Below, piece by piece: positions 6,328-62,716 of a stretch of 64,000 bases of DNA. The position numbers and the translations under genes are program-made. Source of the DNA: Dryococelus australis (Eukaryota; Arthropoda; Insecta; Phasmatodea; Phasmatidae). Positions within the stretch are counted from its first letter, which is position 1. The number at the start of each line of letters is the position of its first letter. The notes under the pieces are model-generated. The model was not told the origin of the DNA. It worked only from the letters and a program-made list of their open reading frames with translations, and did no database searches. Location: positions 67,837,760 through 67,901,759 of the forward strand of contig CM057005.1 of assembly GCA_029891345.1 (NCBI GenBank). Reading direction: 5' to 3'.

Positions 6328-6963
6328 CTGAACGACGCTATACTGAGAGAGAAACCAACAAAACATTAGTTTTTTATAAGGCCAAAAATGTATTTAGTTG
6401 TCCCAACAAAATATTTTGTCGAGTACACAAAACTTGACAAATAACTAACTAATTCTAATTAATTTTGTTCTTCTATCAAAATACAGGACTGAATTAACAA
6501 TGCCTCTGGGCTGTGCCGGAAGAAATTAACTGTCAAAAAACGATTTGGTTGAATTGCCTGTTTTTGGTTATTCATTTGATTGGCTTCGTTCGAAAATACA
6601 GCCCGAGTGTTTGTTAGTATTTTTTGTGACTATTATAATTGTAACAGTGTTTTTTTAGTGCATTTATTGATGCTTAATAACGCTACAAACATCCTAATTA
6701 AACAAGTACAACAGGGTACTAGAAAGGAAAGCTGTAAAACTTGAAACATTTATTTGCATACGGTGTGCAGTATTTGAAATGTATGTATTAAAAAAAAACA
6801 CCTATATCAGTAGTCAATTTAGCCGAGATTGCTAAGGCGCAGCGCTAGGTCGGTTCGAATTATGATTTCGCCACAAGTGTCTTTTTATATTAAAATGAAA
6901 CTGTTTAATGTACGTCGGGCAAGACATATCTTTAGTTGCTCCAACCAGATCTTTGTTTGTGGA
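6328..6963. other. Stretch without recognised feature
   Basis: AT-rich DNA between two SINEs. Nothing was recognised. Confidence 0.5.
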
Positions 6964-7217
6964 TGAGCGTGTGAAGAGATTTGGGCGGCTCTTAACAGCG
7001 AGGTCTTGAGAGCCGATGAGGGTGATTGAAGTGAATATGGAGCGGCGCCAGAATGAAGAGGCGGGGAAAACGGGAGATCCCCGAAAAAAAATCCACCAAC
7101 CAACGACATCGCCCGGCACGATTCCCACTTACGAAAATCCCGTGACCCGGCCGGGGATTGAACCCGGTTCGCCTTGATGGGAGGCGAGCAGTCTAACCGC
7201 TCGGCCACCGTGGCCCC
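6964..7217 (-). mobile_element. tRNA-derived SINE, family S1, nearly full length
   Basis: On the minus strand the head reads GGTGGCCGAGCGGTTAGAC (A box) with B box GGTTCAATCCCCGGCC. The diagnostic body follows: GGGGATCTCCCGTTTTCCCC, GGCGCCGCTCCATATTCACT, CACCCTCATCGGCTCTCAAG. It ends TTTGGGCGGCTC reversed. It is the best local reference for S1. The head looks like a tRNA-Ser or tRNA-Leu type, but it is not a functional tRNA gene. Confidence 0.92.
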
Positions 7218-7314
7218 TGCGAGGCTGGAGTCTGCGATTTAAGGGGCTCACCAACCTGGAGCTATATTCCGCGTCAGAGGCAAAGAAGCGCGGGATCGAT
7301 AAGGGGCTACATGA

Positions 7315-15321: not shown

Positions 15322-16619
15322 CATATATTAACTTCGTTTCGCAAAGAGATCGGCGATTAAAAATTGTATCGTAATTGAAATAATTATTGTGAGAGTGTTG
15401 ACAGGAGAGTAAATGTTCCAGCTTTCCGTAGTAGTGCCTCTCTTACAGGCGTGACAGTAAAAATCTAAGTTGAACTGATTTGTTATCTTAAGAAATGGCA
15501 CAAAATTTACAGTAAACACGGAACTCCAGTATAGGTATGATGTGGAGGTCCATAGGGGGCCATTGCAATTCTAATAGAGTCCCTAGAACCCAAGGGGGGG
15601 AGGAGGTCCTGATACCCACAATCCCGGAGGCTTCTGTGGCCGGTATCTCAAACATTGCCTACATAGTACATACAGGCACCGTTTGCAAACGCTAGTTTGG
15701 TGCTCTGGGCCCCTTAATTTAGGCAATGTTACAAGACTTTTGACAGCAGCGGGTTGCCAGCTTGCAGGCATCACACATTGATCTGACGGTTCACAACCAG
15801 GAAAAAAAAACGTTTTAGTAATACATTTTAGAATGAGATAAACTCCAAACAAGAGCGCACTTACGCCAAGCTTGTATCGGATCACATCTTATAGGATACG
15901 CCCTGAAGGGCACTGATAAAATAGCAAACTCACGAAAAAAAACGCCGAATGGCACTGTGCTAGTTGTGAGGTAGAACTAGCCAATCAGTGGCGCAGGCGC
16001 TCGGGACTGAGTAAGTCCAAGGAATTCACTGAATCCACGAAGTTTTCTTCTATAACAAAATTAAATCTTTAACCGGCGTGGCAATATTTTTTTACTGTAC
16101 TGCTTTCGTACCGACACCCACGAACCCGTTGGAAGTTCACAAAATATTCAACATACTGTGTATGATTAATTTCAAGTGGACAGTGCACTAGATGTTTTTA
16201 CAATATGATTGCGGTAGTTACCTATATCTGGAAAATTTTCCACGCCTCAAAAATCTTCAAGCCCGGGACTTCTGGACTCCCGGACAGCCGCTCACAAGAA
16301 AGGGGGAAATGGTTAAACGAATAATAACTGAATAATTGGTGACGAAATTTCTAAACGCGAACATTTTCCTGCTATGATGGGATAGTTTTGCACAAAACCC
16401 CTGAGATCAATTCAAAAGCAAATACATTTCAGCTTTGAAAAATTTGTCGCAGTACGAGTCTCGACACAGAAAACCTTTTATTCTATGATTTGTCAGAAAC
16501 TGTTTACAGCTAAATGGAGTTTTTACCTTCGTACACGCATTCACATTTTACGAGAACACTAAAACTCAAAAGTGCGGCACATTCAACCGCTTAATGTATA
16601 TGTATATGAACCATTCCAA
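15322..16619. other. Stretch without supported gene
   Basis: Mixed DNA. A 100-codon minus-strand frame at 15,583-15,885 has no recognisable domain. Nothing else was recognised up to the virus-like fossil. Confidence 0.5.
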
Positions 16620-18409
16620 GCAGGTCTGTATACATTTCCATCGAAAATGAGGATTGCTATACAAAATCACAATATGTACATTTTGCCATCGAAATCAAGT
16701 TTAAGGTTTTGAGGAACAATAAAAATGACAGCCATGCAACTAATCCAGTAACTACAGGAATAGTGAGAAACATAATACATCATTTAATCGACAGAATTGC
16801 CTGTCTGCTCAATGGTGTTGAAATCGACCAATCACAGGATGTTGGAATTACTTCCATGATAAAGCAATATCTCTCAGAAACTGTAAACAATCTTTATATG
16901 GGGCTAATGGCTGGGTGGAGCAATGCTAATAATTTTACACAACAAATAAAACCCAGATGGAAAATATAAAGTTGTTATACTGTTAAGTATGATACTTTGA
17001 TTTGCTGAGGACTATACACATGTAATATTAAATGCTAAACAAGAATTAGTTATTCTATTTGGTAACATGCATTTGAATGCTTTATACAACACAGCTAATA
17101 AAAAGGAAGTTGTAATATTTGAATTAGAGAGTGTCGAATGGCTAATGCCACATACTGAAACTAACACTCGTGAACATGTAAAGTTTATAAATATATCGAA
17201 AAAGGGAATAATCTGGATATTGTATTCAGGTCGTGGGCTTTGGAGTCATTTCCAACTCTACTGACATCACAAAAAGTTATTTGAAATGTGAAATCAAGTT
17301 TTTCATCTGAGAAACCACAATTTGTCATTATTTGCTTTCAAACAAATAGCAAAATATTAAACTGAATCTAAACAGTCGAGCATATCCCAATACCAATTTA
17401 ATTGCGAACTTTCGAAATGGGGAATTCCTTATTTCCTACAATATGTACTCAAAGTATCAGGAAATGTACTATAACAATATCAGTTCACCGATTCTAGAAC
17501 CTATATAATTTAAAATGAGAGGAACATTATATGTATTTGACGTAAGCGAACAAGACGACACAATTATCAAAGGTGTAATTGATTCATAAATATAAATTAT
17601 TGCAAATATACCCATTCTGGAAAAAATGCAAGCTTATGCATTGATAATTCATGGTAGATTAGCACATTATAATATAAGAGATAAACTGATGAAGATAATG
17701 ACTTGAGTCAGTAGATAACAAGAGACAGTGTTAACAAAGGTTTTGCAATTTGCAAAAAGTTCAATACCCAGAAAAATTTATCATTAAAAAATTAGCTATT
17801 ACTGATATGGAGGAACACACAATGGTATTTAGCTTGAAACCACCATGCCACTGGAAATATCTGAGTCCTAAATATAATAAAAGAAATATATGGGTAATCA
17901 AACACCACCAGGGTCTAAAATGGGAAAGTGGATGTATGGAGTATGAGAATATTGAAGATATTTGCAAACAATGCTTAAATAATTGTTAAATATATGTATA
18001 ATACAATTGTCCTACATTGAAACAATTGCATAAAACATCTGGTTATAAATAGAACATCTTCTCTGCAGAGGAAAACTCTTGATTAATGCTAAATTGACTA
18101 TTGATGACTGACTGGGGTGAAACAGATAACGATTCTCCCCCTGAGCCACCAGTGAATATTATAGAAGTAATGTGGCATTATCTGGGATGAGAGAACTATC
18201 TAGTGGAATTTAGTATATAAATGTACTTGGTTTGTGCAAGTCAATACTTTGTAAAGATGGCTCAAGACAATAACAAGGTCATGTGCTTGTGCATACAAAA
18301 ATCGAAGTGTAAATTGAAGATTATCGAGTTACTCACACACTGGAGTAAACCTTTTACAAAATGTTTTGGGGTGAAAAATTGTAATGATTTAATATCTTGT
18401 CCAGATTAA
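16620..18409 (+). pseudogene. Virus-like DNA element fossil with capsid-type region
   Basis: Plus-strand fragments resemble a protein set seen in insect genomes and attributed to DNA-virus-derived or Polinton/adintovirus-like elements. About 16,620-17,690 holds capsid-like pieces, with short matches such as IACLLNGVEIDQ and EKPQFVIICFQTN. About 17,740-17,990 holds a second protein with the recognisable pattern KPPCHWKYLSPKYNKRNIW and GLKWESG. A small frame lies at 18,221-18,409. It is clearly broken, with roughly ten or more breaks, and no large intact frame remains, so it looks old. Its composition is more AT-rich than its surroundings. The family assignment rests on recalled similarity only. 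Confidence 0.5.
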
Positions 18410-20460
18410 CAAAATGCCCTATGTTCGAATACAACTCTATCATCTAAGAAATGTATTCGCACTTTTTCTGCTTTTACCAGAATGTATAATACTACTGCAA
18501 GACAATCAAACAGATGGAAATACTTCAAATATTGTCAGGGTGAAGACATAATCTATTATGTAAACATCTATTGTTCTCAATATGTACTTTATAATACAAA
18601 TGTAGCTAAATAAATGGTTTAAATTTTTTTTTGTTTTACTGACCTTATGAATACACTAATTGTAATATCCACATATAAACTATTTCTGCCTATGTAACCT
18701 TTGACTATGTGCATTTAACAATAAAGGTTTGTGGGCGGGATATTGATTAAATAATAGTAAATTTGAAAGCGATATAATACTTAAATGGTCATTTCAAACA
18801 AATAATGTACTCGAATTGCTTCCTAGAATTGTCTAAAGCTGCCTATAAAATGTATGTGTCTTTCAGTTCCATTTTAGACTTGGAAAAGTAGGGAAGCAAT
18901 GATGGCTTTGCTGTATTGCTTTTGTGGTAATGAATGTACAGTTCTGCAGAACTTATGACGACACAAAAGAATACCTCATGGAATGATAAATTCAAGCAAA
19001 CAGTTTCAGTGTGATTTCTGTCAGACAGTTTTCTCAAGCTGATATTTTTAAGAGACATTGTAAAGTTTGCATAATTGGTTCTCCACATCCGCAATCGCCT
19101 ATGCGATATATGGAATTTGCGTGACTTGTTATTTAATAGTTTGAATTCCTTTTGTCGCATTTTTAATATATATTTTTTAGAATTACTGGAGATTAAGTAA
19201 TTGTGGGTGAGATGTAATAATTACATTTTTTTACATGATTTGAACACCAACAAGTATGAAAATGGAAGTGGTCGAGAAATGGATGTACTCTGAAAGTAAA
19301 GGAGATGGGAGTGTTTAAGAAATTCTTGCGAATGAACTCTGAAAGTAATAGAATGAGGGAGAATCTTGAGAAAGTCTAGCTGAACTTGAAAAACTCAGAA
19401 TGGCGGGACAGGACAAGGTTGTCAGAAGGGAACGAGGTTTGGGACAACTTCAAGTAAACTGACTCTTGCCCTGCAGAGCAAGACTAAGGAATGTCTTGTG
19501 GCGAGCTTCACTAGCTGACATCGACAAAATATTTTAAAACAGTTTCCAAGGAAATACAAACTTATAAATAACTTGATTAAAAAATCTAGTATTACTTAAA
19601 AAAAATTACTGCAACTGTGAATCAACACATTAATGTCTGTTGAAAAGAGATGTTATTCTTCAACTATATGTTGAAATTGATGGTATACACGAAGTCTGTG
19701 TATTGCAGTGAACTGCTGTAACATACCTTTTACGCACAATTAAAAACAATTTTTTTATGAAACTGTTTCTGGACAAAATTTTGAGAGCATTCTCTGAAGC
19801 AGTTTTATGGTGTAAACTAACATCAATGTTATAACATGAAACTGAAAGGGCTGTGGAAATGGGAGAATCTTGAGAAATCCTGTGAAAAATATGTTGATTA
19901 TCCAGTAAGGGAACAAACCTGTTTACTAGGTCGATACACCTTGGTGAGCACGTTTACCACAAAATCGAACACTCAGGCTGTTGGAAAACATATTTTAAAT
20001 AGCATAATATTTGTTACACATATCTATGTTTTACAAAATGGAATCCATTTTGAAGTATTTGTCCTGTGTATAACTAATATTCTTTACTGTACTTCTCAAA
20101 GTGAAATTTTAGATTGTAGTTTTTACACATACAAGTTGGAATTGTTTGTCTTGGTTTTAAATGTACGTGATTCCAAGTAGTTTTTTAGTAAAGAATACAG
20201 ATTTATTGGATTATGTACACTTTACATTATAATGTTTGAAACAATATTTTAATAATATTTTTAAGATACTGTTATAAGAATGTCAATTAAATTTGCAGCA
20301 TTTTAAATAACTTGTAGGTTACACTTCATTAAGTTGTTTACTGAGGGATGAGACTTATTTGTTATTCCACAAAAAAATATATAAAATGATTTTGGTCTCA
20401 ATTGTTGTATTAACATTTAATGTTTTGGAAAATATTATAAAAATGAATTCCCTTTATATT
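18410..20460. other. AT-rich stretch without supported gene
   Basis: Very AT-rich with poly-T tracts. Frames at 18,843-19,160 (minus) and 19,836-20,180 (plus, 114 codons) have no recognisable domain. The left part may belong to the element at 16,620-18,409, but nothing shows this. Confidence 0.45.
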
Positions 20461-26055: not shown

Positions 26056-27337
26056 ATGAGGTAGACCACTTATTCGTCTTCTGCACATGTGCCCAACATT
26101 GACCTACCCCAATCCTACACAACTGTCAAATTCACATGGTCAACAGTGATGAACGTGTTTGTTTAAATCTTAATTTTTAAATAACCAGCACTATTATATT
26201 AATAAACTACCTTTACCATTATGAATTTAATCTTAAAGCATTGCAAACTGGTTAGAGGAAAACATCTCTGAACACTTGTTTACAAATCAGTTTTATAACC
26301 TTTTGAGTACCTTTTAACAGTGTTACAAATTCACCGTGTTCGATATTTTCGGAACACTGATTGAACATAAGAAAAAAAAATATTTTTTCTTCCGTCAGTG
26401 CTGCGAGAATAATGACGGCAGTAAATATCTAACAACGTAGAAATATGTTGAAAATTATTATTTGTGTCTTGTCGAGCCAAATATTTCGACAAACCCTTTG
26501 GAAAACGACATATCGAAAATCGGGTAAATATACTGGTTTCATGCACCATTCCTCTAAGTCTGGTTTCCTGACGGATAAGCGTTCACCCCGCAGCTTCGGC
26601 TCCTGCCTATCTAGTGCTTCCCCACCTCCCACTCCTCCCCCCCCCCCCCCGCGCGTTTGTGGCCAAGAAGCGCCGGGGTGATACGGGCGACACGAGTAAA
26701 GAAATAAATACGGGATTTTCTGCGAAAGTCATAAAAGTTAATTGCCGTAAAATATTTTACGTCACCGCAAATATTGAGAGCAAGATAAGTGTTTTGATTG
26801 AAGTAAAAGCATGTAAGATGCAGAAAATTAATGACATAATGTATCAGTTTTGTGAGACGCGGATATAAACCATGTTGATTTAAAGAATGTTTTTACCTGT
26901 CCAGTCAGTTATAAATATTTTAAGAAATGCATGGGAATTTGCGTTTTAGAGTCAAGACCATGAGAATAATGACAGTTGTTGAGATTTTAAGATAACCCAA
27001 AGGAATGTTGTTTCCAGAAAATACACAGATTTAAAAATTAATGAATAAATGTCAGATTACGATTATGTTTTGTGAATACAAGTGATAAAAATTAGAATTT
27101 TTAAAGATGGTAAATCAAATTAACCATTAGATATTAACAGATTAGATATTAAACTAAATGTGGCAAAATACTTTTAAATAAAATTTGCAATACCAAATGC
27201 ATGGCGCCACATTTGTTTTATGCGCATAGTAAATTTTCTTATTCAATATTGTATTTTGATAATGAAACATCAAAGCTTTGAGAGTTAGAGCTGACATGAT
27301 TGTTTCTATGAGTGTTTTTATGATATCAATTTCGTTG
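26056..27337. other. AT-rich stretch without supported gene
   Basis: Contains a C-run near 26,636-26,650. Short open frames (26,445-26,681; 26,614-26,868) have no recognisable domain. Confidence 0.5.
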
Positions 27338-27568
27338 GGCTCGCCTTTTACCAAGGCGAACCGGGTTCAATACCCGGCCGAGTCACCGCATTTTCGCAGG
27401 TGGGAATCGTGCCGGACGATGCAGCTGGTAGGCGGGTTTTTCCTCGGGTATCTCCCGTTTCCCCCGCCCCTTCATTCCGGCGCCGCTCCACATTCCCTTC
27501 GATCACCCTCATCGGCTCTCAAGACCTCGCTATTAAGAGCTGCCCAAATATCTTCACTCACTCTGTAG
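27338..27568 (+). mobile_element. SINE family S1, 5'-truncated
   Basis: Begins inside the tRNA-like head, just before the B box GGGTTCAATACCCGGCC, and runs through GTGCCGGACGATGCAGC, TATCTCCCGTTTCCCCCGCC and CACCCTCATCGGCTCTCAAG to CTTCACTCACTCT. The A box is missing. Confidence 0.9.
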
Positions 27569-27728
27569 GCGGAAGCCTTGACTTGTACACTCGGCATGCT
27601 ATGCACTCTCCGTGAGAATACGGAAGAGACCAAGGTGGGCGTGTTCGTCGTCCCGGGACAAGGAAAGAAAGTCTGTCGGGAAGAGGGCCATTTAAAAGCT
27701 GCGAACGTTCCGAAAGTTCTATGACTTA

Positions 27729-28145
27729 TAGGCTGTTCACGGTAAAATGAGCACTTTTAAAAGCCCTGCTTAAGGTCTACTTGCATGCACGTTGTGTATT
27801 CTTCCGCCTTATGTAAAATTAACAATGCCATGGACCTCATCACTTTATTCATGCGTTCAAGTAAAATCCTGAAATTTTTAGAAAAGAAAATATTATACAA
27901 ATCGGCTAATTTTCACACTTCGAAGCATTAAAAAATCAGAAAGAGAAAGAAATAATTTAATATCACAAATGGTTGCCTAATATTTTCTATTCGACGTTAA
28001 GATATGGAACTATTTTCCATCTATCGTTACCAACTTTGCAGGGCGAATGTCACTCAGTGCGCCCATTAAAATGTATGCGTTCAGGGGCAGTGACTTTTGT
28101 CTATGGTTCAACTGAAAAGAGCTCAGTTGATCGCGAACAGCCTGT
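27729..28145 (-). mobile_element. MITE family A copy, reverse orientation
   Basis: TAGGCTGTTCACGGTAAAAT at the left and AGTTGATCGCGAACAGCCT at the right bracket the reverse A body (ATCACAAATGGTTGCCTAA, GTTACCAACTTTGCAGGGCG). TA stands at the left flank. Confidence 0.9.
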
Positions 28146-28458
28146 AACAAGAGTAATTGTCGGGTGCTGGCGGCGCGGAGTAGTTACATGCGCTGGGAGA
28201 ACAGGTAGGACGGCACCGCCTTCCTTTCATTGCAGCCAGTGGTTAGTGTTTCACGGGTGCGAAGGAAACAGCTGACACCTCATTATGTTCACTTGTAGTT
28301 GTGAGACGCCGCCCAATGTTCGTGCACTTCCTTCAGTTATCTCCAGCGACTAAGTGCACGATGGTCCTTTTTTTTTTTTTCCCCCTGGCGAGCCACCAAA
28401 TCCCGCTACGTCAACGTGAGCACCTTCACAGTTCTGTCTGCCCTCCGGCATGCATGTT
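28146..28458. other. Stretch between two family A copies
   Basis: GC-richer with a poly-T tract near 28,369. No feature was recognised. Confidence 0.5.
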
Positions 28459-33169: not shown

Positions 33170-34020
33170 TAAAACCTTTCACTGTAAACTGAGCATTTTT
33201 TTTTTTTAATCATCCTGTGAAGAGAATTACCACCCCTATGAGCTGTTCAAAGAAAAATGAGTACTTTTGAAAGGGCTGCTTAAGATATACTTGAATGCAC
33301 ATTGTGTATTATTCCGCCTTATGCAAAATTAACATTGCCATGGGCCTCGTCACTTTATTCATGCGTCTGTCAAGTGCAACTGTGAAATTATCACAAAAGA
33401 AAATGTTCTGCAAATCTGCTAATTTCTACAATTCGATGCATTAAAAAAAAAAAAAAACAGAAAGTGAAAGAAATAATATAAGTTATCACAGATGGTTACC
33501 TGGCACTTTTTATTCGACGTTAAGATATGGAACTACTTTCCCTCCATCGTTACCAAATTTACTGGGCGCATGTCACTCAGTTTGCCCGTTAAAATATATA
33601 CAGGTAGAGATAGTGATTTTTTTCTAAGGTTGATTTCAAAGGTGCTCACTTTATAGTGAACAGCCTTTAACAGTATGTATTTTAACGGATACACTGAGTG
33701 GCATGTTCCCAGTTAATGTTGTCACCGAAATACGAAAAGTAGTCCCATCTATTTTCGTCGTATTCCAAGTGTAAATTTCACATTTGTGGACACTGAATTT
33801 TTTAAACATAATTTTCTATTTTTTTTTTACGCTGATCAGACTAAGAACTAGCGTATTGTTAACGTAGTTGCATTCCTAACAGTTTCATAAATGGCGATTG
33901 AGCAAAGTGAGAGGGTCAGTAGCAAAGGTAATTTTACATCTGACGGAAGGATACAAAATGGGCATAGCAATAGATCTAGGGCAGGGCTTCCAAAAGTGCT
34001 CCCATAACCATGAGCATACT
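33170..34020 (+). mobile_element. Old MITE family A copy, interrupted by another A copy
   Basis: The left piece (33,170-33,238) is a worn A head (CACTGTAAACTGAGCATT ending near ACCACCCCTATG). The right piece (33,668-34,020) continues with ATTTTAACGGATACACTGAG and runs to GCTTCCAAAAGTGCTCCCAT. The reverse-oriented copy 33,239-33,667 sits between them. Confidence 0.7.
33239..33667 (-). mobile_element. MITE family A copy nested in another A copy
   Basis: AGCTGTTCAAAGAAAAATGA at the left and TTATAGTGAACAGCCTTT at the right. The internal blocks ATGCAAAATTAACATTGCC, CATGCGTCTGTCAAGTG and GTTACCAAATTTACTGGGCG are the reverse A body. Confidence 0.85.
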
Positions 34021-36531: not shown

Positions 36532-36742
36532 TTAACATCGAGGTCTTGAGAGCCGATGAGGGTGAAGTGAGGCGAGTATGGAGAAGCGCCGGATGCAAGG
36601 GCGGGGAAGAAACCCACCGGAAACAGCGGCAGCGTCCGTCACGACTGCCACATGCGGAAATCCGAGAACAACCACGTCGGGAATCGAACCCGGTTCATCT
36701 AGGTGTGAGGCAAACAGTCTGACCACTGCACCACATATGGTG
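36532..36742 (-). mobile_element. SINE family S1, main piece (split copy)
   Basis: Continues the S1 copy on the minus strand: ATCGAGGTCTTGAGAGCCGA, GCGCCGGATGCAAGGGCGGG, B-box complement GGGAATCGAACCCGGTTC, and TGAGGCAAACAGTCTGACCA at the tRNA-like head. Confidence 0.88.
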
Positions 36743-38469: not shown

Positions 38470-39064
38470 ATTATATGTTGCCTTAGATAGAGGTACATCT
38501 ATCAATATACAATACTGAGATAGCTTCAAAGTGTAAAGTACAGAACATTTTGTTTGATTCAAATTGTATATACATTTTACCAGTATACACATATAGACCC
38601 AAATCAATAACTTGGATTACACGTGATACTGGAAGTGTTGTCGAACTGCCGTATTCAAAAGCAGCCATTATATGTTGCCTTAGATAGAGGTACATCTATC
38701 AATATACAATACTGAGATAGCTTCAAAGTGTAAAGTACAGAACATTTTGTTTGATTCAAATTGTATATACATTTTACCAGTATACACATATACACCCAAA
38801 TCAATAACTTGGATTACACGTGATACTGGAAGTGTTGTCGAACTGCCGTATTCAAAAGCAGCCATTATATGTTGCCTTAGATAGAGGTACATCTATCAAT
38901 ATACAATACTGAGATAGCTTCAAAGTGTAAAGTACAGAATATTTTGTTTGATTCAAATTGTATATACATTTTACCAGTATACACATATACACCCAAATCA
39001 ATAACTTGGATTATACGTGATTCTGGAAGAGTTGTCGAACTGCCGTATTCAAAAGCAGCAATTA
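38470..39064. repeat. 197-bp tandem triplication
   Basis: Three head-to-tail units at about 38,470-38,666, 38,667-38,863 and 38,864-39,060. The first two are almost identical and the third has a few changes. Each unit carries on the minus strand an open frame reading AAFEYGSSTTLP followed by IQVIDLGVYVYTGKMYIQF. Because 197 is not a multiple of three, the units do not join in frame. The unit could include a duplicated exon, since CTG/GTAAAATG lies inside it, or be non-coding. Confidence 0.9.
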
Positions 39065-40141
39065 TTTTATACGACATTTTCTTGCAAAGGGCGTCTGCTG
39101 ACTGCGTTCCATCAGAGTGATCTGTTTGTTAACTTTGGTATCGAATTTTTTTTTTTTTTTTTCCTTCCTTCCTAGTTGTGTGGTTTCACGACTGTCGTAA
39201 CTTTTTCAGCACCCGAATATATTTATGAATAAAAAATTTAATACGTGCAAATGAAGTTCCGCTTGCTATTGTTTTAGAATTGTGGAAATTGAACCCATTT
39301 CTCAGCCATACATTCCTAGGGAGTTTACCTCCTCCATGTATCGAGCCACATATTTTCCCGTAAGGAATTGCCTAACATAGCTTGTCGTTAAAATTCATGT
39401 TTACTGTACAAATAAAAAGCTAGTGATTATTAGTAAGTACTCGATCCACAGATTCTTGTGGTTGTTTTAATCTAACATCGATTTTCTGCGCAATTTATTA
39501 CACCTATGTGTAACAGTTTCATGGTTTGGTTGTGGTTTCGATCCCTGATGATAAAGTTAGTCTAAATATGCTACGTCGATGACTTTTGTACTTTGATGAT
39601 TTACCACCGACATAGAATGTAGTATTTTTTTTAGTAATTACTAATTTGAGAAAGGCACGAAGTCCGAAGTCGCTAATTTTCAGGAGCGCATAAAAAGCGA
39701 TTAAATTCTACATGCTTGAACCAACAATTTTTACAATTTACCTAATGTTTAATTTAGGTCACTCTTTGACGTTTGTAAGAACAATGAGTGCGATAAAGCC
39801 ATTACATTAACGTGTATAAAGTTGAAAACATTTTGGACTTAGTGCCTGTCTCCACTAAAGGTATTGAAATAAATATGCTACTAGGAAAATATGCTACGTT
39901 AGCTGTTTAGAACTACTGCAAGTAAAAATAAAAGTAAAAATCAAACATATTGTTTTATTTATTTTTCATGAAACACAGAAATATTTTATTTGAATTACAC
40001 AGTTATATACAATTTTATCTAAATTCAAAGTTAAAAAAAAAAAAAAAAATAGAACTTGTTCAGATTTTTGTTTGCAGCAGCATTTTTACTTGCAAACAAT
40101 ATTGATACTCCATAACACAGATAGTTGCAACATACAAAACA
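39065..40141. other. AT-rich stretch without recognised gene
   Basis: Poly-T near 39,148-39,163 and poly-A near 40,033. Nothing else was recognised. Confidence 0.5.
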
Positions 40142-52745: not shown

Positions 52746-53111
52746 TAAAAGAAAGCATTATTAACACTTATTACCAACAGCCGATGGATTTATTTAACCG
52801 TTCATTTAAAAAGTATATAACTTAGTCAACAATGACTTAACAATAATCACTGGACTCGAAATTCGCTCTTCCTCTACTGACGTTTCCGAGAATCGAAGTG
52901 CGGTAGGCGGGCCTACACGCATGGGAACATGGTTCGCCGAGCCAGGTTCGGCGATCCATGTTCGAGGGCCACGCGCTCTACACACAGTGGAGAGAAATGC
53001 CAACAATGGTTCGCCATTGACACAGTTTCACGCTGAAAACGGCAGGATGAGATGTTCAAAAGTGGCTGCTACTGTGATTGTTTTGGATAAGTTGAGTTTT
53101 TAAAAGAAAAC

Positions 53112-53480
53112 CGAGAAAGGGGAGATCAGAGAGGACCAAGGAGTGGTTGCGTGAAAGAGAAAAGTGGTCGCACGCTAATCTATTGAAATATCTGAGAGAG
53201 AACAATGCAACGGACTACCGAAATTACTAAAGAATGAGTGAGGATAAGTTTGACGTTTTATTGGAACATGTGAGTCCCCATATAGCAAAGCAATATACTC
53301 ACACGAGAACATCAATATCGGCCGAACAGTGTCTGATTGCTACACTTAGGTACTTGGCTATAGGACGAAACATGAAAGACTTGAAATTTACATATGCCGT
53401 ATCTCCACAAGCATTGGGCAAACTGATACCAGAGACGTGCAGAGCGATTTACAACAGTCTCAAGGATCATTGTGATTAAC
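53112..53480 (+). pseudogene. PIF/Harbinger transposase, first exon (damaged)
   Basis: The plus-strand reading from about 53,112 gives KPRKGRSERTKEWLRERKKW, then LLKYLRENNATDYRNY. A stop (TAA at 53,229-53,231) stands where Leu is expected before RMSEDKFDVLLEHVSP. It continues with SISAEQCLIATLRYLAIGRN and KLIPETCRAIYNSLKD. This is the N-terminal helical region of the HARBI1-like family (usual pattern RNYLRM-...-LLITLRYLATG). A further frame change upstream near 53,100 separates a possible start at 53,047. The exon ends near 53,480 before GTAAAG; a TAA just before this GT is a further defect. Confidence in the family is high. Confidence 0.85.
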
Positions 53481-53669
53481 GTAAAGTATTAGCTGCTAAT
53501 AACAGTAATGTACAAACCATTGAAATGTCGTAATAAGCAAGGATAATACAGGCGGAACAATATATATGTGCAATGTATTACTGATAACTAAATACACAAA
53601 TGTACAGCAATTTACATAGCACACAAAGCATACACCCCAACACTGAGGTGTAGTGATTTGCCGACACAT

Positions 53670-54118
53670 CTATGTAGATGTATCGTGTGGTGTAGCGCTG
53701 CGAGAGCTACCAGTGGTATTGGCGGGGAAACTATGTAAATATATGTATGAGGGTGACAACTGGTCAGTCTGTCCCTGGTAATGTTGACACGGGGGTGGTT
53801 GTGGGTATGTGTAAGCATAAACATTGTCCTGAAAAGTGGTATTAGCAGATAATTGTTTCTGTAGGCCTTTGTAGAGTACGTCGTGGATGAGTTTATAGGC
53901 ATGTAGGAACTGATGTTCCTCCAGTTTCCGAAATTTTTACAGCTATCACCTTCCTGATATGGTCGAATTCATCTTCGGGTGTTTTCCAATACACACATAG
54001 CTTTTGCTAGCAGTTGTTGGTGCTGATAATTGTCTGAATCTGCCTTCTGACGTTCAGTTCCTTGACCCGCCTTTCGATTGACACTTGGTTCCCTCGGTTG
54101 AGGTGCTGGTTGAGTATC
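53670..54118 (-). pseudogene. MADF/BESS-like protein, last exon (damaged)
   Basis: Minus strand. A clean 3' splice site (CTACTTTCAG, ending at 54,119) opens DTQPAPQPREPSVNRKAGQG and QHQQLLAKAMCVLEN. EDEFDHIRKVIAVKIS and KLEEHQFLHAYKLIHDVLYK follow; their pattern resembles a BESS motif, a protein-interaction helix pair. Then comes a Pro/Gln/Tyr-rich tail with a stop at 53,670-53,672. Two frame changes occur before the tail. The exon is phase-compatible with the 5' exon ending at 55,730. In this family the protein is thought to bind DNA and assist the transposase; this role is known for Harbinger second genes and not shown here. Confidence 0.75.
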
Positions 54119-54219
54119 CTGAAAGTAGAGGTGTGCGCTTCAGGTTAAGGTGAAGAATATGTGGAGTGTCACGAATACTATAAACAAAACATGCACAAAT
54201 ACGGTACAATTCAGTGTTA

Positions 54220-54496
54220 TAGTACATTCGCGTTAAAGTGAGCACTTTTGATAGCCGTGCTTAGTTTCTCCTTCACCCAACTGTGTATCATTCCGCCCAA
54301 TATACATATTAACATTGTCGTGAGCATATTGACTACATTGACTAGTGTTCATACGCCGACCTACATTCCCTAATTCATTGCCAACTTAACCGGGGGTAAC
54401 CATGAATATTTATGTTACATTATTTGCAGCTAACAGGCAGTGATATATTTCAAAGGTTAGAGTCAAAAGTGTTCACGTAAATCTGAATACACTATA
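54220..54496 (-). mobile_element. Diverged MITE related to family A, inside the Harbinger element
   Basis: The left end ATAGTACATTCGCGTTAAAG and right end in reverse ATAGTGTATTCAGATTTACG both lead into (T/G)GAGCACTTTT- or GAACACTTTT-type inner ends. The body has A-like blocks (CATTGTCGTGAGCATATTGA, ATTGCCAACTTAACCGG). It lies in the introns of both element genes. Confidence 0.65.
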
Positions 54497-54576
54497 GCAT
54501 AGTTATTGCTTAAAGTGCGATATTGCTATTGGTATGTGTGTGTGTATATATAACATATTGCTTTACTTTGTTTCAG

Positions 54577-55359
54577 TTTCCTTCCAACAAAGAAGACTGG
54601 CTTGTGGTAGTCCATGATTTTCACCAACAATGGAATTTCCCCGGTTGTAGTGGAGCTATGGACGGCAAACATGTCGCAATTGCGCAGCCTATAGGCAGTT
54701 GTTCGTATTATTATAAGTATAAAGGATACTACAGTATTGTGCTTCTTGATGTGGTAAATGCCAACTTGGAATTTATCATGGCCGATGTCGGTTGCAATGG
54801 CCGGGTGTCTGATGGTGGTGACGTTGAGGAAACTGTATCTTACTGTGTGCCGCAAGACGACAAGGTCCATTTACCAACAACACAACGTACAGCGGAAAAC
54901 TTGAATTTCGTTTTTGTTGCCGATGATGCTTTCGCTTTGGGGGACCATCTCCTAAAGCTGTTTCCAATGAAAAATCTTACATATGAACAAAGAGTGTTTT
55001 ATTACAGATTATCACGTTGTAGACGTGTCGTTAAAAACGCGTTTGGGATTTTGGCCACGCGTTTCCGGATTTTCCATACAACTATTAATTTCCAGCCTAG
55101 GAACGTAGTGGATATTGTTTTGGCCTATGTTGCACTACAAAATTTTCTGCTACGGAAATGCCGTAAACATTACACACCTACTTCTGCATTGGATAGGGAA
55201 GAGATTGACTCGGGAAATGTAGTGGTAGGAGAATGGATGCAAGACCCGTTGCCTGACAAGCAATATCAGGACTTGCATGGTTGGTACATCTCGCAACTCT
55301 TCGGCATCCGCGAAAAGGAACAGAACGCAGTACATGGAATACTTCGTGGGAAAAGGTAG
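54577..55359 (+). pseudogene. PIF/Harbinger transposase, catalytic exon
   Basis: The exon starts after TTTGTTTCAG (ending 54,576) with FPSNKEDWLVVVHDFHQQWN. It contains GAMDGKHVAI (first catalytic Asp), NGRVSDGG, FVADDAFAL (second Asp) and RRVVKNAFGILATRFRIF. In HARBI1-like transposases this last block normally reads VVENAFGIL, and the Glu is the third catalytic residue; here codon 55,033-55,035 is AAA (Lys). The frame is otherwise open for 260 codons to 55,359. It lies within the intron of the minus-strand MADF gene. The family call is firm; the protein would be expected to lack catalytic activity. Confidence 0.92.
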
Positions 55360-55729
55360 AGTCCCATGGCAAGATAACATGGTACAGCATCGTGCCAGAG
55401 AGTGAGCATTGTTTTATACGATATGTCAGGTATTGTTAAGGTATGAAGTGCAAACATACTTTATCGTGTAGCATATAACGTATTTCTTTTCATTGTCTGC
55501 TTATTCGCATCGGTTAATTACATTTAACACGGAAACCATTGATAAGTTCGTGATTAGCTTACTGTACGTAGGCCGATTTCATACATTACAAACAATTCTT
55601 CGTAATAACATTGTATGTTACGTGTTCGTTGTATCCGTATTACTAATTTTGTAAACCACAACCATACTTGTACAATGTTGATGAACTGTAAGTAAAAACT
55701 AAAAGACAAATAAACCTCACTGTACTTAC

Positions 55730-56152
55730 CTGACCTTCATTTTGACTTCCCCCATCCTCTTTTCCCGCTTCGTCTTGTAGGATCATTGTTGACGTTGGAG
55801 GGTTGTGTTCCTCGCGATCGGTGACGCACGAGAGCATGTCATAGTACCACAATCGAGGTTTAATCTATACACGCTATACTCAGACGCACCCGATTTCATA
55901 GAGTCTTTCACCTTTCTATATTGTCTTCGAAACCTCTGCTTCAGTGATTATTTTATGGATTTCAGAAAGGTTAATTATGCACTGGCTGTATTCTCTCGCG
56001 TAATTAGCAAAAGTGTATGCACTGCTTCATCGCGCATGTTCCTATCCTGGTACTCATCACTCTTCACTTTCCACAAACATGGATAATTACGATAGGCCTC
56101 GATGAAGTCCGTCAGAAAATACGGGGTTCATAAAATGAGCACTATTCGACAT
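55730..56152 (-). pseudogene. MADF-domain protein, first exon (damaged)
   Basis: Minus strand. A possible start ATG lies at 56,150-56,152. MADF-domain pieces read FIEAYRNYPCLWKVKSDEY, QDRNMRDEAV, RFRRQYRKVKDSMKSGAS and LWYYDMLSCVTDREE, in order but in different frames, with at least two frame changes and two stops. The exon ends GSQNEGQ followed by a consensus 5' splice site GTAAGTAC at 55,729 downward. MADF is a Myb/SANT-like DNA-binding domain. The last exon lies at 53,670-54,118, giving an intron of 1,611 bp that contains the transposase catalytic exon. Confidence 0.82.
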
Positions 56153-56424
56153 TGTAGCACAGCGTCTAAACACACCTCACGACTGCTCTAGACTACTGAA
56201 CAACGGTCCGTCCTCTCTACACACAGGCGAACGTGGTTCGCCGTAGTGGCGAACCGAACAAATGTTTTCCAACTCGATGAAAGACCAAGTTCGTCCGCGA
56301 ACTTGGTACATTAGTACCCACACACAGGCGAACCACGGGGAACTTGGTTCATACGAACTAAGTTCGGTAAACCATGTTCCCATGTGTGTAGGCCGCTTTA
56401 GGTTTATTCTACTCTGGAAGCTCA

Positions 56425-56921: not shown

Positions 56922-57289
56922 GTGCTTTTAAAATAGACGAATACTAATTGGCAACTAAAATTTTTCACTACTGGGTAGGCGCTAGTGTCGCACGTGTACC
57001 AGAGATAAGTGTACCGTATGCTCTCTATTTTCTACGTTAAAAAACAAAATAATTGCAACAATCATAAATCACATATAAACTATGTTACTAAGAAAAATAT
57101 TTCGCTTTTACTATTCACACAGCTTAAAATTTTAATTAAAAGATACCTCCTTGAAACACTGCGCACCTAGAAGCAGAAATTTTCCTTATGACAAACTCCC
57201 CCTTAAGAAATGTAATAATTTTTCCTAACCTAAACATTTATTAACTTTAGGTAGGCTAACAATAATTTCCGTATCGTAACTTATTCTTA
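56922..57289. other. Stretch without recognised feature
   Basis: AT-rich. Nothing was recognised. Confidence 0.5.
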
Positions 57290-57710
57290 AAGGCTGTTAA
57301 CGATAAAGTGAGCACTTTAGAAATGAACCATAGAAAAAATTCACTGTTCCTGCATGCATATATTTTAATGGGCGCACTGAGTGACATTCACCCAGTAAAA
57401 TTGATAAAGATGGATGGAAAGTAGTTCCATATCTTAGCGTCGAAAAAAAGTGTTAGGTAACCATTTGTGATAACTTGAAATTATTAATTTCACTTTCTGA
57501 TATTGTATTGCATCGAAGTGTAAAAATAAGCAGATTTGTAAAGTATTTACGGTCATAAAAATTTCCCAGTTTAATTTGACCGACGCATGAATAAAGTGAC
57601 GAGGCCCACGGCAACGTTAATTTTACATAAGGCGAAAGAATACACATCGTGTGTAAAAGTAGATCTCAAGCAGGACTTTCAAAAGTGCTCAGTTTACTGT
57701 GAACAGCCTA
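57290..57710 (+). mobile_element. MITE family A copy, complete
   Basis: AAGGCTGTTAACGATAAAGT at the left and TCAGTTTACTGTGAACAGCC at the right, with body blocks GGGCGCACTGAGTGACATTC, GTGTTAGGTAACCATTTGTG and CTTTCAAAAGTGCTC. Confidence 0.9.
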
Positions 57711-59263: not shown

Positions 59264-59613
59264 GTACCAGCGTGTTCCGTTGATCATTACAGTTCTGTTT
59301 GTTGCGGGAACATTAGAAATATTGCTGAAGTTTGCTCTATCTGAAGGAACAATCTGTTTGGTAGCAAGAACAGACTACTCTGTTATAGGAACTACACGTA
59401 TATTTGTGCCACAACAGAAAGTTCTGTTGCTCTTAGTACCAGCGTGTTCCGTTGATCATTACAGTTCTGTTTGTTGCGGGAACATTAGAAATATTGCTGA
59501 AGTTTGTTCTATCTGAAGGAACAATCTGTTTGGTAGCAAGAACAGACTACTCTGTTATAGGAACTACACGTATATTTGTGCCACAACAGAAAGTTCTGTT
59601 GCTCTTACTATCT
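59264..59613. repeat. 175-bp tandem duplication
   Basis: Two adjacent units (about 59,264-59,438 and 59,439-59,613), both starting TACCAGCGTGTTCCGTTGAT and ending AAAGTTCTGTTGCTCTTA, differ at about one or two bases. This implies a recent event. Confidence 0.93.
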
Positions 59614-60689: not shown

Positions 60690-61745
60690 CGTTCTATATC
60701 CGCCATTACATGAGGCGAGCACAAAATAACACACACTATAATGTTGATGATTGGAAAATGGTCGCCTGGTTCGATGAATCCCGATTCCTGGTTCATCACA
60801 TCGACGGCCAGGCGTAAGCATACCGATTACCATCGAAGGGAGTGATGGTAAAGGCTGTTCACGATAAAGTGAGCACTTTTGAAATCAACCTTAAACAAAA
60901 GTCACTTCCCCTGCCTGCGTATATTATAAGGGCGCACTGAGTGACATGCGTCCAGTAAAGTTGGTAACAATGGATGGAAAATAGGCCCATAAGTTAATGT
61001 CAAATAAAAAGTGTTAGGTAACCATTTGTAACAATTTAAATTATTTCTTTTGGTTTTTAATTTTTTTTAATGTATCGAAGTGTAAAAAAGGTCGATTTGT
61101 GAAATATTTACTTTTTTAATAAATTCAAAGTTTCACTTGACCGACGCTTGAATGAAGTGATGAGGCCCATGGCAGTGTTAATTTTACATAAGGCGGAAGA
61201 ACACACAACGTGCGTACAAGTAGATCTTAAGCAGGGCTTTCAAAAGTGCTCATTTTACAGTGAACAGCCTATACCCAGGTGCACTGTTGGGTGGAGACAG
61301 GCCGGAGGTATAATGGTCCGCGATGTTTTCATGGGAAGCATTGTGGCCCATTATTCCGGTACACCAATCCCTTTACAGCTGTCCTGTATATGGACGTTAT
61401 TGGAAAAGAGGGGGGGGGGGGGGAAAGTTCGTCCCTGCATGCCGACAGAGATCCCTGGTGGCAACCGCCGCTACCAACAGGATAACGCGCCACGGCATGT
61501 CGTTACGATTGCGAATGACTGGTTCGAGGAACCTGACAGAGAATGTAGCTCGGATACGAACCCAACTGTTGAAGATTTGTGGTTCAACTTTGAGAAGCGG
61601 AGTCGCGCTACGTCACCACTGTACAGTGTACGGCAACTGGAGGACCTGATGTCGCGCTTGTGGTATCAGATACCCCAGGTTAACATCCGCCGCCGCGCCA
61701 AGCCGTGTCGAACCAATGCCTCGCTGAGTGGCCAAGGTTCTGCGG
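60690..61745 (+). pseudogene. Tc1-like transposase remnant, split by a MITE
   Basis: The left part (60,690-60,850) reads NVDDWKMVAWFDESRFLVHH and IDG, with the first catalytic Asp in WFDESRF and a stop soon after. The right part (61,274-61,745) reads CTVGWRQAGGIMV, then after a G-run and frame change RYQQDNAPRHVVTIANDWF (second Asp in QDNAP) and NPTVEDLWFNFEKRSR (third catalytic residue, Glu, in the VEDLW block). This is the usual order of Tc1/mariner DD34E transposases. A family A MITE interrupts it at 60,851-61,271. The N-terminal DNA-binding part was not found, and terminal repeats of the Tc1 element were not identified. Confidence 0.85.
60851..61271 (+). mobile_element. MITE family A copy inside the Tc1-like transposase
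   Basis: AAGGCTGTTCACGATAAAGT at the left and CATTTTACAGTGAACAGCCT at the right, with TA on both sides (60,849-60,850 and 61,272-61,273). Removing it and one TA brings the two halves of the transposase next to each other. Confidence 0.93.
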
Positions 61746-61750
61746 ACTAC

Positions 61751-62716
61751 GCTCTAAATCTGAATCAGTGAGAATTTCTCTGTTTCAATCAGTCAAATGT
61801 ATCTGACTGATTCAACAGTCACTTCAGTGAATTTAACTGATGAATCAGTGAAAAAAATGCTAAATTTCCTTCACTCATTGATTCAGTGACATTTTCCACT
61901 GCTGCATCAGTCATTTTTTTCACTGTTTGCTCAGTGATATATTTTTAACTGACGAATCAGTTAAACATGTAAGAATGGCAGTCGAACAACGTTTAAAAAT
62001 GGCCGCTAAACAAAGTCTATCAAGAAAATAACTACGAATAAACTAATAAAACCAATACAAACTACTCTCGAAAATGAGTTTCGTCTTTCAAAACACCATT
62101 TATGAGGTAATAGTAACACACAGCCTTTCATTCCGTTTTTATGTCTTTCATTTAGTTTTCATGTAATCGTCACAGCGCTCCGTGTAATGAAGAGAGGGCA
62201 CTCATATGTTCAATTCGTTTTAAGAATCTTAACGGTACCAATTAAACCAAAAACGAATAGTAAGAGCATATAATTTAAATCTTCAAGATCTCGCGGCAAA
62301 ACTGTAAGTCATGTTATTTTTCCCTCATTATTTCAACTTGACGTGGTAACGCAGATGGTAAGGTAACGGCCAGAGTCGAAAGATGTGCGAGTTCAATCCC
62401 GGCTACCTCCGGAATTTTTTTTTTAAATTACGGTAAATTGAGCAATATAAATAGTAACTAATTGTAAAAATGTTTATTTCTCGTAATTATTTGGCTACAT
62501 TCAATAAAAACAACATTTAATTCGCCCCTGTAGTCGGCCGTCACTTATTCAATCAGTGAAATAATTTCACGTTACCAATACAATCTGTGAATTTTTCTTT
62601 TCACTGAAACAATCAGTGGTTTATCTACTAATTCTAAGTGGAGCCATTTTCACTGATTCAAGTAGTTAAATTTCACTGCGAATCAGTGGTTTCCCACTGA
62701 TTCGAATTTAGAGTGT
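61751..62716. mobile_element. DNA element with dense ATCAGT subterminal repeats
   Basis: Ends are inverted: left CGCTCTAAATCTGAATCAGT, right in reverse CACTCTAAATTCGAATCAGT. Each terminal 200 bp carries many ATCAGTGA or TCACTGATT motifs in both orientations. It has no transposase. The terminal CRCT and the subterminal repeats recall CACTA/EnSpm-like elements, but this is inference. A 2-bp TA may be duplicated at its borders. It cut into the end of the Tc1-like remnant. Confidence 0.7.
62341..62411 (+). other. tRNA-like Pol III promoter boxes inside the ATCAGT element
   Basis: TGGTAACGCAGATGGTAAGG resembles an A box, and GAGTTCAATCCCGG is a good B box 45 bp later. A convincing cloverleaf could not be drawn by eye, so this is called tRNA-derived and not a tRNA gene. 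Confidence 0.4.

Follow-up and report, generated by a model that had tools for sequence, protein, structure and literature searches.

A decayed two-gene PIF/Harbinger-type transposon of the stick insect Dryococelus australis whose convergent genes probably interlock

Can the two genes of a small DNA transposon be threaded through one another, each keeping its last exon inside an intron of its partner? The question is raised by a locus of the stick insect Dryococelus australis for which a preliminary description had proposed such mutual nesting of opposite-strand genes. We analysed the locus within a 64,000-nucleotide stretch of DNA, hereafter the window (assembly GCA_029891345.1, contig CM057005.1, positions 67,837,760 to 67,901,759 of the forward strand). 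From left to right the coding blocks run P1, M2, P2, M1, where P denotes an exon of the plus-strand transposase gene and M an exon of the minus-strand MADF gene (Table 1); the coding exons of one gene do not overlap those of the other. We conclude that P1, P2, M1 and the transposase intron are real, that M2 and the MADF intron are probable, and that the convergent genes likely interpenetrate, the last exon of each lying within the other's intron on the opposite strand.

Table 1. Features of the element, in window coordinates.
Feature	Position	Strand	Remarks
Left terminal inverted repeat	52910..52950	+	41 nt, 83% complementary to 56354-56394
Transposase exon 1 (P1)	53112..53480	+	Limits of the preliminary description; homology to L025 from 53123 to 53467
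Polyadenylation signal AATAAA	53257..53262	-	3' of the proposed stop codon of the MADF gene, within P1
Transposase intron	53481..54576	+	1096 nt, later repeat insertion included; L025 protein continuous here
Proposed MADF gene exon 2 (M2)	53670..54118	-	Three frames in turn; splice signals, phase
Proposed MADF gene intron	54119..55729	-	1611 nt, holds the transposase catalytic exon
Short member of MITE-like family	54215..54502		About 288 nt, inside both introns; arms 54215-54251 and 54463-54499
Transposase exon 2 (P2), catalytic domain	54577..55405	+	Frame open to 55359; frame of C-terminal motif ends at 55405
Polyadenylation signal AATAAA/ATTAAA	55709..55714	+	Only plus-strand one in 52,901-56,400; between P2 and M1
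MADF gene exon 1 (M1)	55730..56152	-	PF10545 MADF domain
Right terminal inverted repeat	56354..56394	-	Pairs with left repeat at 52910-52950

The element is about 3.5 kb long and bounded by inverted repeats whose best-matching section is 31 nt at 90%; part of the repeat motif occurs once more at 56217-56243. Together with a DDE_Tnp_4-type transposase and a MADF second gene, these terminal repeats support its identification as a decayed two-gene PIF/Harbinger-type DNA transposon with the MADF gene on the opposite strand, and in this the two-gene Harbinger element of the preliminary description is upheld. PIF/Harbinger elements of animals duplicate a 3-bp target site, TWA. In the flanks, inspected by eye, the nearest candidates for such a duplication, left GTA and right TTA, are equal at two of three positions, and the exact ends differ by an indel.

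The transposase gene is identified by its second exon, which matches DDE_Tnp_4 (PF13359, E 7.6e-20, 71.6 bits against a cut-off of 24.8) and, weakly, Plant_tran (Pfam, 9.4e-5); the match lies where a catalytic exon had been proposed, at 54,577-55,359. P1 alone (53,234-53,476) has no Pfam match at E<=1, and its connection to P2 comes from a relative, L025, which a pattern scan detected among contigs of bacterial and archaeal genomes. This 3,505-base contig (CALINO010000055.1), filed under an Arenicella MAG, was the sole relative among 21 pattern matches (next best E 0.18, tblastn with exon 2). Its transposase is 35-38% identical to P2 in three alignments (E 1e-42, the alignment start extending slightly into the intron), and its residues 62-183 match P1 (tblastn, E 6e-16), both E-values referring to a 3.7 kb database of the element. 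In L025 the transposase frame stays open, without a break, past the site of the window's intron. Because this continuous protein matches P1 and P2 apart, the two exons encode adjoining portions of a single protein, and in the window the intervening 1,096 nt behave as an intron, as the preliminary description had it. The plus half of the interlock is thus supported by homology. Members of the wider family do not all have this intron: L025 has none at this site, and an apparent intron of its own lies closer to the C-terminus. A Harbinger-type, apparently intron-bearing transposase gene in a bacterial MAG indicates that L025 is probably eukaryotic contamination. A MADF search of the L025 genome gave no match, with controls equally silent; among 398 genomes of the same phylum, drawn from a larger group, the transposase alignment matched only the seed genome, and the MADF search gave no match, its controls silent as well.

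Searches of other collections yielded no further relative. Pattern scans of IMG/VR matched 4, 101, 17 and 51 stretches, none confirmed, and two patterns matched none. The IMG/VR stretches L001 and L003-L008 encode variants of one non-relative protein, presumably a phage nuclease; in L002 the matched stretch lacks an open frame. Twelve further IMG/VR stretches, checked by tblastn with exon 2 only, contained no relative; nor did tblastn of phage and plasmid collections find one, and another pattern, applied to genome contigs, matched 16 stretches, none confirmed.

The splice signals of the plus gene are uneven. We ranked candidate sites on each strand by a simple score whose site frequencies are generic values, not those of a trained model. 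The acceptor at 54,577 ranks third of 189 on its strand, in keeping with the view that the plus splice signals are directly visible, but the donor at 53,481 is weak (52nd of 260) and the phases misfit: the donor is in phase 1 and the acceptor in phase 0, judged from coordinates, so that the junction is out of frame in the present copy. P1 as delimited holds in-frame TAA codons at 53,228-53,230 and at 53,477-53,479, the latter immediately before the donor, and no in-frame ATG occurs between 53,051 and 53,233. At the other end of the gene, YMEYFVGKGRVPWQ, which resembles the L025 C-terminus, lies at 55,331-55,372 in a frame other than that of the domain (a match weak when taken alone, E 0.07), and the final codons of the 54,577-55,359 frame are, from this comparison, probably out of frame. 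A lysine codon at 55033-55035 gives VVKNAFG in the window against VIENAFG in L025, whose glutamate we take to be the catalytic E of the DDE triad; the residue replaced was thus probably catalytic. The catalytic DDE residues are probably not intact in this copy, which matters for activity and not for descent.

This damage bears on whether the host kept the catalytic exon as a domesticated, transposase-derived gene. Such retention would suit the 260 codons that stay open from 54,577 beside a badly broken MADF gene, and transposase-only cases have been reported in cockroaches, according to the available part of that study (PMC9710019). The stops in P1, the plus junction out of phase, a C-terminus seemingly out of frame and terminal repeats that are still present make it extremely improbable.

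The minus-strand gene is damaged as well. M1 matches the MADF domain (PF10545) with E 7.6e-7 for 55978-56127 alone and 3.1e-10 once pieces are joined by hand, with X inserted at each break. At E<=5 MADF is the sole Pfam family matched by the joined pieces, and the C-terminal M2 piece matches none; BESS is without Pfam support, and we therefore keep the label to MADF protein, retaining one half of the earlier name, MADF/BESS-like. M1 carries two in-frame stops within 55930-55992 and shifts frame near 55858-55875; taking the ATG at 56152 as the start adds a second shift near 56112-56126. With two in-frame stops and several frame changes in the MADF gene, and with a TAA within P1, no in-frame ATG, a broken junction, lysine for glutamate and a shifted C-terminal motif in the transposase gene, the copy is a fossil. 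No claim on present-day splicing is possible for that reason.

The minus half of the interlock is probable, given its splice signals, its phase and a presumed resemblance of M2 to other MADF proteins. The minus signals and phases agree with the preliminary description: the donor at 55,729 (CAG followed by GTAAGTAC) is the top-ranked of 243 candidates for its strand, seven of 171 acceptors score above the one at 54,118, which ranks eighth, and the junction joins phase 0 to phase 0 from coordinates. M2, described earlier as one exon, is not a single open frame: the frame opened by the acceptor stops at 53,969, and three frames are needed in turn, 54118-53972, about 53994-53935 (the analyst's reading) and 53936-53670, the final part being open in another frame than the first. 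We take the M2 pieces to resemble the C-terminal part of insect MADF proteins, with a helical motif and, after it, a tail rich in P/S/Y, and M2 is probably the last exon of the MADF gene. Searches of solved structures with exon 2, the M2 tail and the MADF piece returned nothing usable (one match, E 0.4, to a designed protein), and the last M2 piece had no match there.

A test of amino-acid composition, based on generic amino-acid frequencies, placed two of eight pieces below 5% of the null, one from MADF exon 1 (M1c, 3.1%) and the first of M2 (M2a, 2.75%). The transposase exons fell at 49% and 32%, two MADF exon 1 pieces at 28% and 40%, and two versions of the M2 tail at 61% and 34%. Because the transposase exons and two of the three MADF exon 1 pieces score like the null, this test cannot separate coding from non-coding sequence.

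If M2 were non-coding, the two genes would lie tail to tail with no interlock, the MADF gene using a nearer acceptor or ending soon after the MADF domain. An acceptor with first exon base 55,685 ranks second of 171; after an intron of about 45 nt, 43 codons stay open from it in phase 0. Another, 14th in rank at 55,341, opens a frame of 63 aa; 53,670-54,118 has no database match, and the composition test gives the M2 tail no support. Yet an intron of 45 nt would be very short, the 43-aa frame has no recognisable feature, the M2 pieces seem to resemble the C-terminal part of insect MADF proteins, and the first of them scores within the highest 2.75% of the composition null, though eight pieces were tested. 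We regard a tail-to-tail arrangement as rather unlikely. A further alternative acceptor, at 53,828 (rank 7), still leaves the last exon inside the plus intron.

A different doubt is whether only this copy has the order P1-M2-P2-M1, M2 having been carried between the transposase exons by a rearrangement or an insertion while live relatives carry their genes side by side. The preliminary description had proposed comparing exon order among other copies. The 64-kb window holds no second copy of the element. The one relative, L025, has no intron at the site, which would accord with a copy-specific order. So would the age of the copy, which is old and disturbed and contains a nested repeat in the same stretch (Table 1). 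This repeat shares its ends with a MITE-like family that is frequent in the window, as judged from an alignment of ten hand-picked window copies; typical members are about 430 bp long with inverted ends containing GAGCACTTT, and relatives lie at 27727-28149, 33242-33672, 57287-57710, 60846-61273 and elsewhere. Against a displaced M2 stand the candidate splice signals found at the block edges on both strands. A single inversion of adjacent exons in convergent genes would, moreover, be expected to flip the strand as well, so that a transposition-like move would be needed. We consider a copy-specific order very unlikely.

The window contains several other features. Two sets of tandem copies are present, a 197-bp unit in three copies at 38470-39065 (98% matches) and a 172-bp unit in two copies at 59264-59607 (99%), and 30792-31394 matches its own reverse complement at 77% around a central (TA)31. 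An open frame on the plus strand at 16610-16966, in or beside a stretch of low G+C (0.333 for 16001-20000), partially matches PF21738 (double jelly roll-like; 5.4e-8, profile positions 5-57 of 316) and is perhaps a fragment of a capsid protein from a Polinton-like or viral insertion. A long plus-strand frame at 61103-61768 has no Pfam match at E 0.01, and its pieces look to us like a decayed Tc1-like transposase. The peptide SPSSALKTSLLRAAQIS occurs in two, and SFRRRSTFPSITLIGSQDLAIKSCPN in the third, of the frames 6888-7238 (minus), 27266-27565 (plus) and 27295-27612 (plus); such strings are presumably common in predicted stick insect proteins. ARAGORN, run with the bacterial code, predicts a tRNA-Val (cac) at 36670-36741 on the minus strand, which may be a tRNA-like repeat or chance because Rfam lists no tRNA in the window; at gathering scores, Rfam has no match in the window at all.

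Returning to the interlocked arrangement, the mutual nesting first proposed holds for the plus intron, through homology to L025, whereas M2 is without database support and has a rival acceptor at 55,685. Against the interlock as a whole stand the two changes of frame in M2, the weak plus donor, the single copy in hand and the intronless site of L025; we nonetheless judge it the probable layout. The polyadenylation signals (Table 1) suggest where the transcripts ended. The plus-strand signal suggests a plus mRNA ending immediately short of M1. On the minus strand, the 3' untranslated end would overlap P1 by about 220 nt because its AATAAA at 53,262 lies within that exon; other minus-strand signals are an AATAAA at 55,003, in the minus intron, and an ATTAAA at 55,864, in M1.

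We suggest the following picture of the ancestral element. The transposase gene would have started near the left end and encoded a DDE transposase; the other gene would have started near the right end and encoded a MADF protein that may have helped the transposase to gain access to the nucleus and to the ends of the transposon. These would be convergent genes, with one intron each holding the partner's last exon, which yields the order P1-M2-P2-M1. By analogy with MuDR of maize, as described in the available part of the source (PMC3440606), promoters near the ends may, in a live copy, have driven convergent transcripts. The antisense of the partner's last exon would then lie, in each primary transcript, only within the intron, and splicing would remove most of the complementary sequence; both introns would have been spliced in the ancestor. 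One could go further and see the interlock as a selected device of an animal PIF/Harbinger family that ties together the dosage of both proteins, which we think quite improbable. It is just as doubtful that, under such selection, either mRNA would escape dsRNA formation and silencing only if both precursors were spliced efficiently.

How does this arrangement compare with known systems? Insect PIF/Harbinger elements and domesticated pairs combine a transposase with a MADF gene, as in the window; in the accessible sections of that report the pairs adjoin, 97 and 179 bp apart in Anopheles, with no interlock, in contrast to the window genes (PMC9710019). PIF/Harbinger elements of Medicago (MtPH) likewise have terminal inverted repeats, a transposase with one or two introns in the table rows, and a second gene; these are plant elements, the relative order of their second gene varies, and the part of the paper at hand does not mention an interlock (PMC2213677). 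MuDR resembles our element as a DNA transposon with two convergent genes and spliced transcripts, and the portion of its account at our disposal also places start sites within the terminal repeats and attributes antisense RNA to failure of termination; unlike our element, MuDR belongs to another superfamily and a region separates its two genes (PMC3440606). The Drosophila genes Dync2h1 and CG5674 lie on opposite strands and are described, in the available text, as strongly mutually nested, with an exon in the other's large intron, but these are host genes and the window pair are transposon genes (PMC10556659). We recognised no interlocked PIF/Harbinger element among the titles and abstract starts listed, a mostly open-access literature that leaves absence from print unproven, and the parts available of two further papers describe no such layout (PMC11893794, PMC9179366).

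Since convergent two-gene transposons such as MuDR and mutually nested genes in Drosophila are known, an interlocked element would be of modest interest as a variant. Should the layout recur in intact copies, it would be a case of two convergent genes, both spliced, packed compactly into about 3.5 kb, and would allow a test of whether a DNA transposon is limited by antisense overlap, which is also a question for MuDR in the available part of its account (PMC3440606). The interlock might also explain the long introns of domesticated transposase/MADF pairs: the transposase-derived genes BPLG1 and BPLG2 of cockroaches each consist of two exons, and the intron of BPLG2 measures about 900-1500 bp in all species but one, as far as the accessible text reports (PMC9710019).
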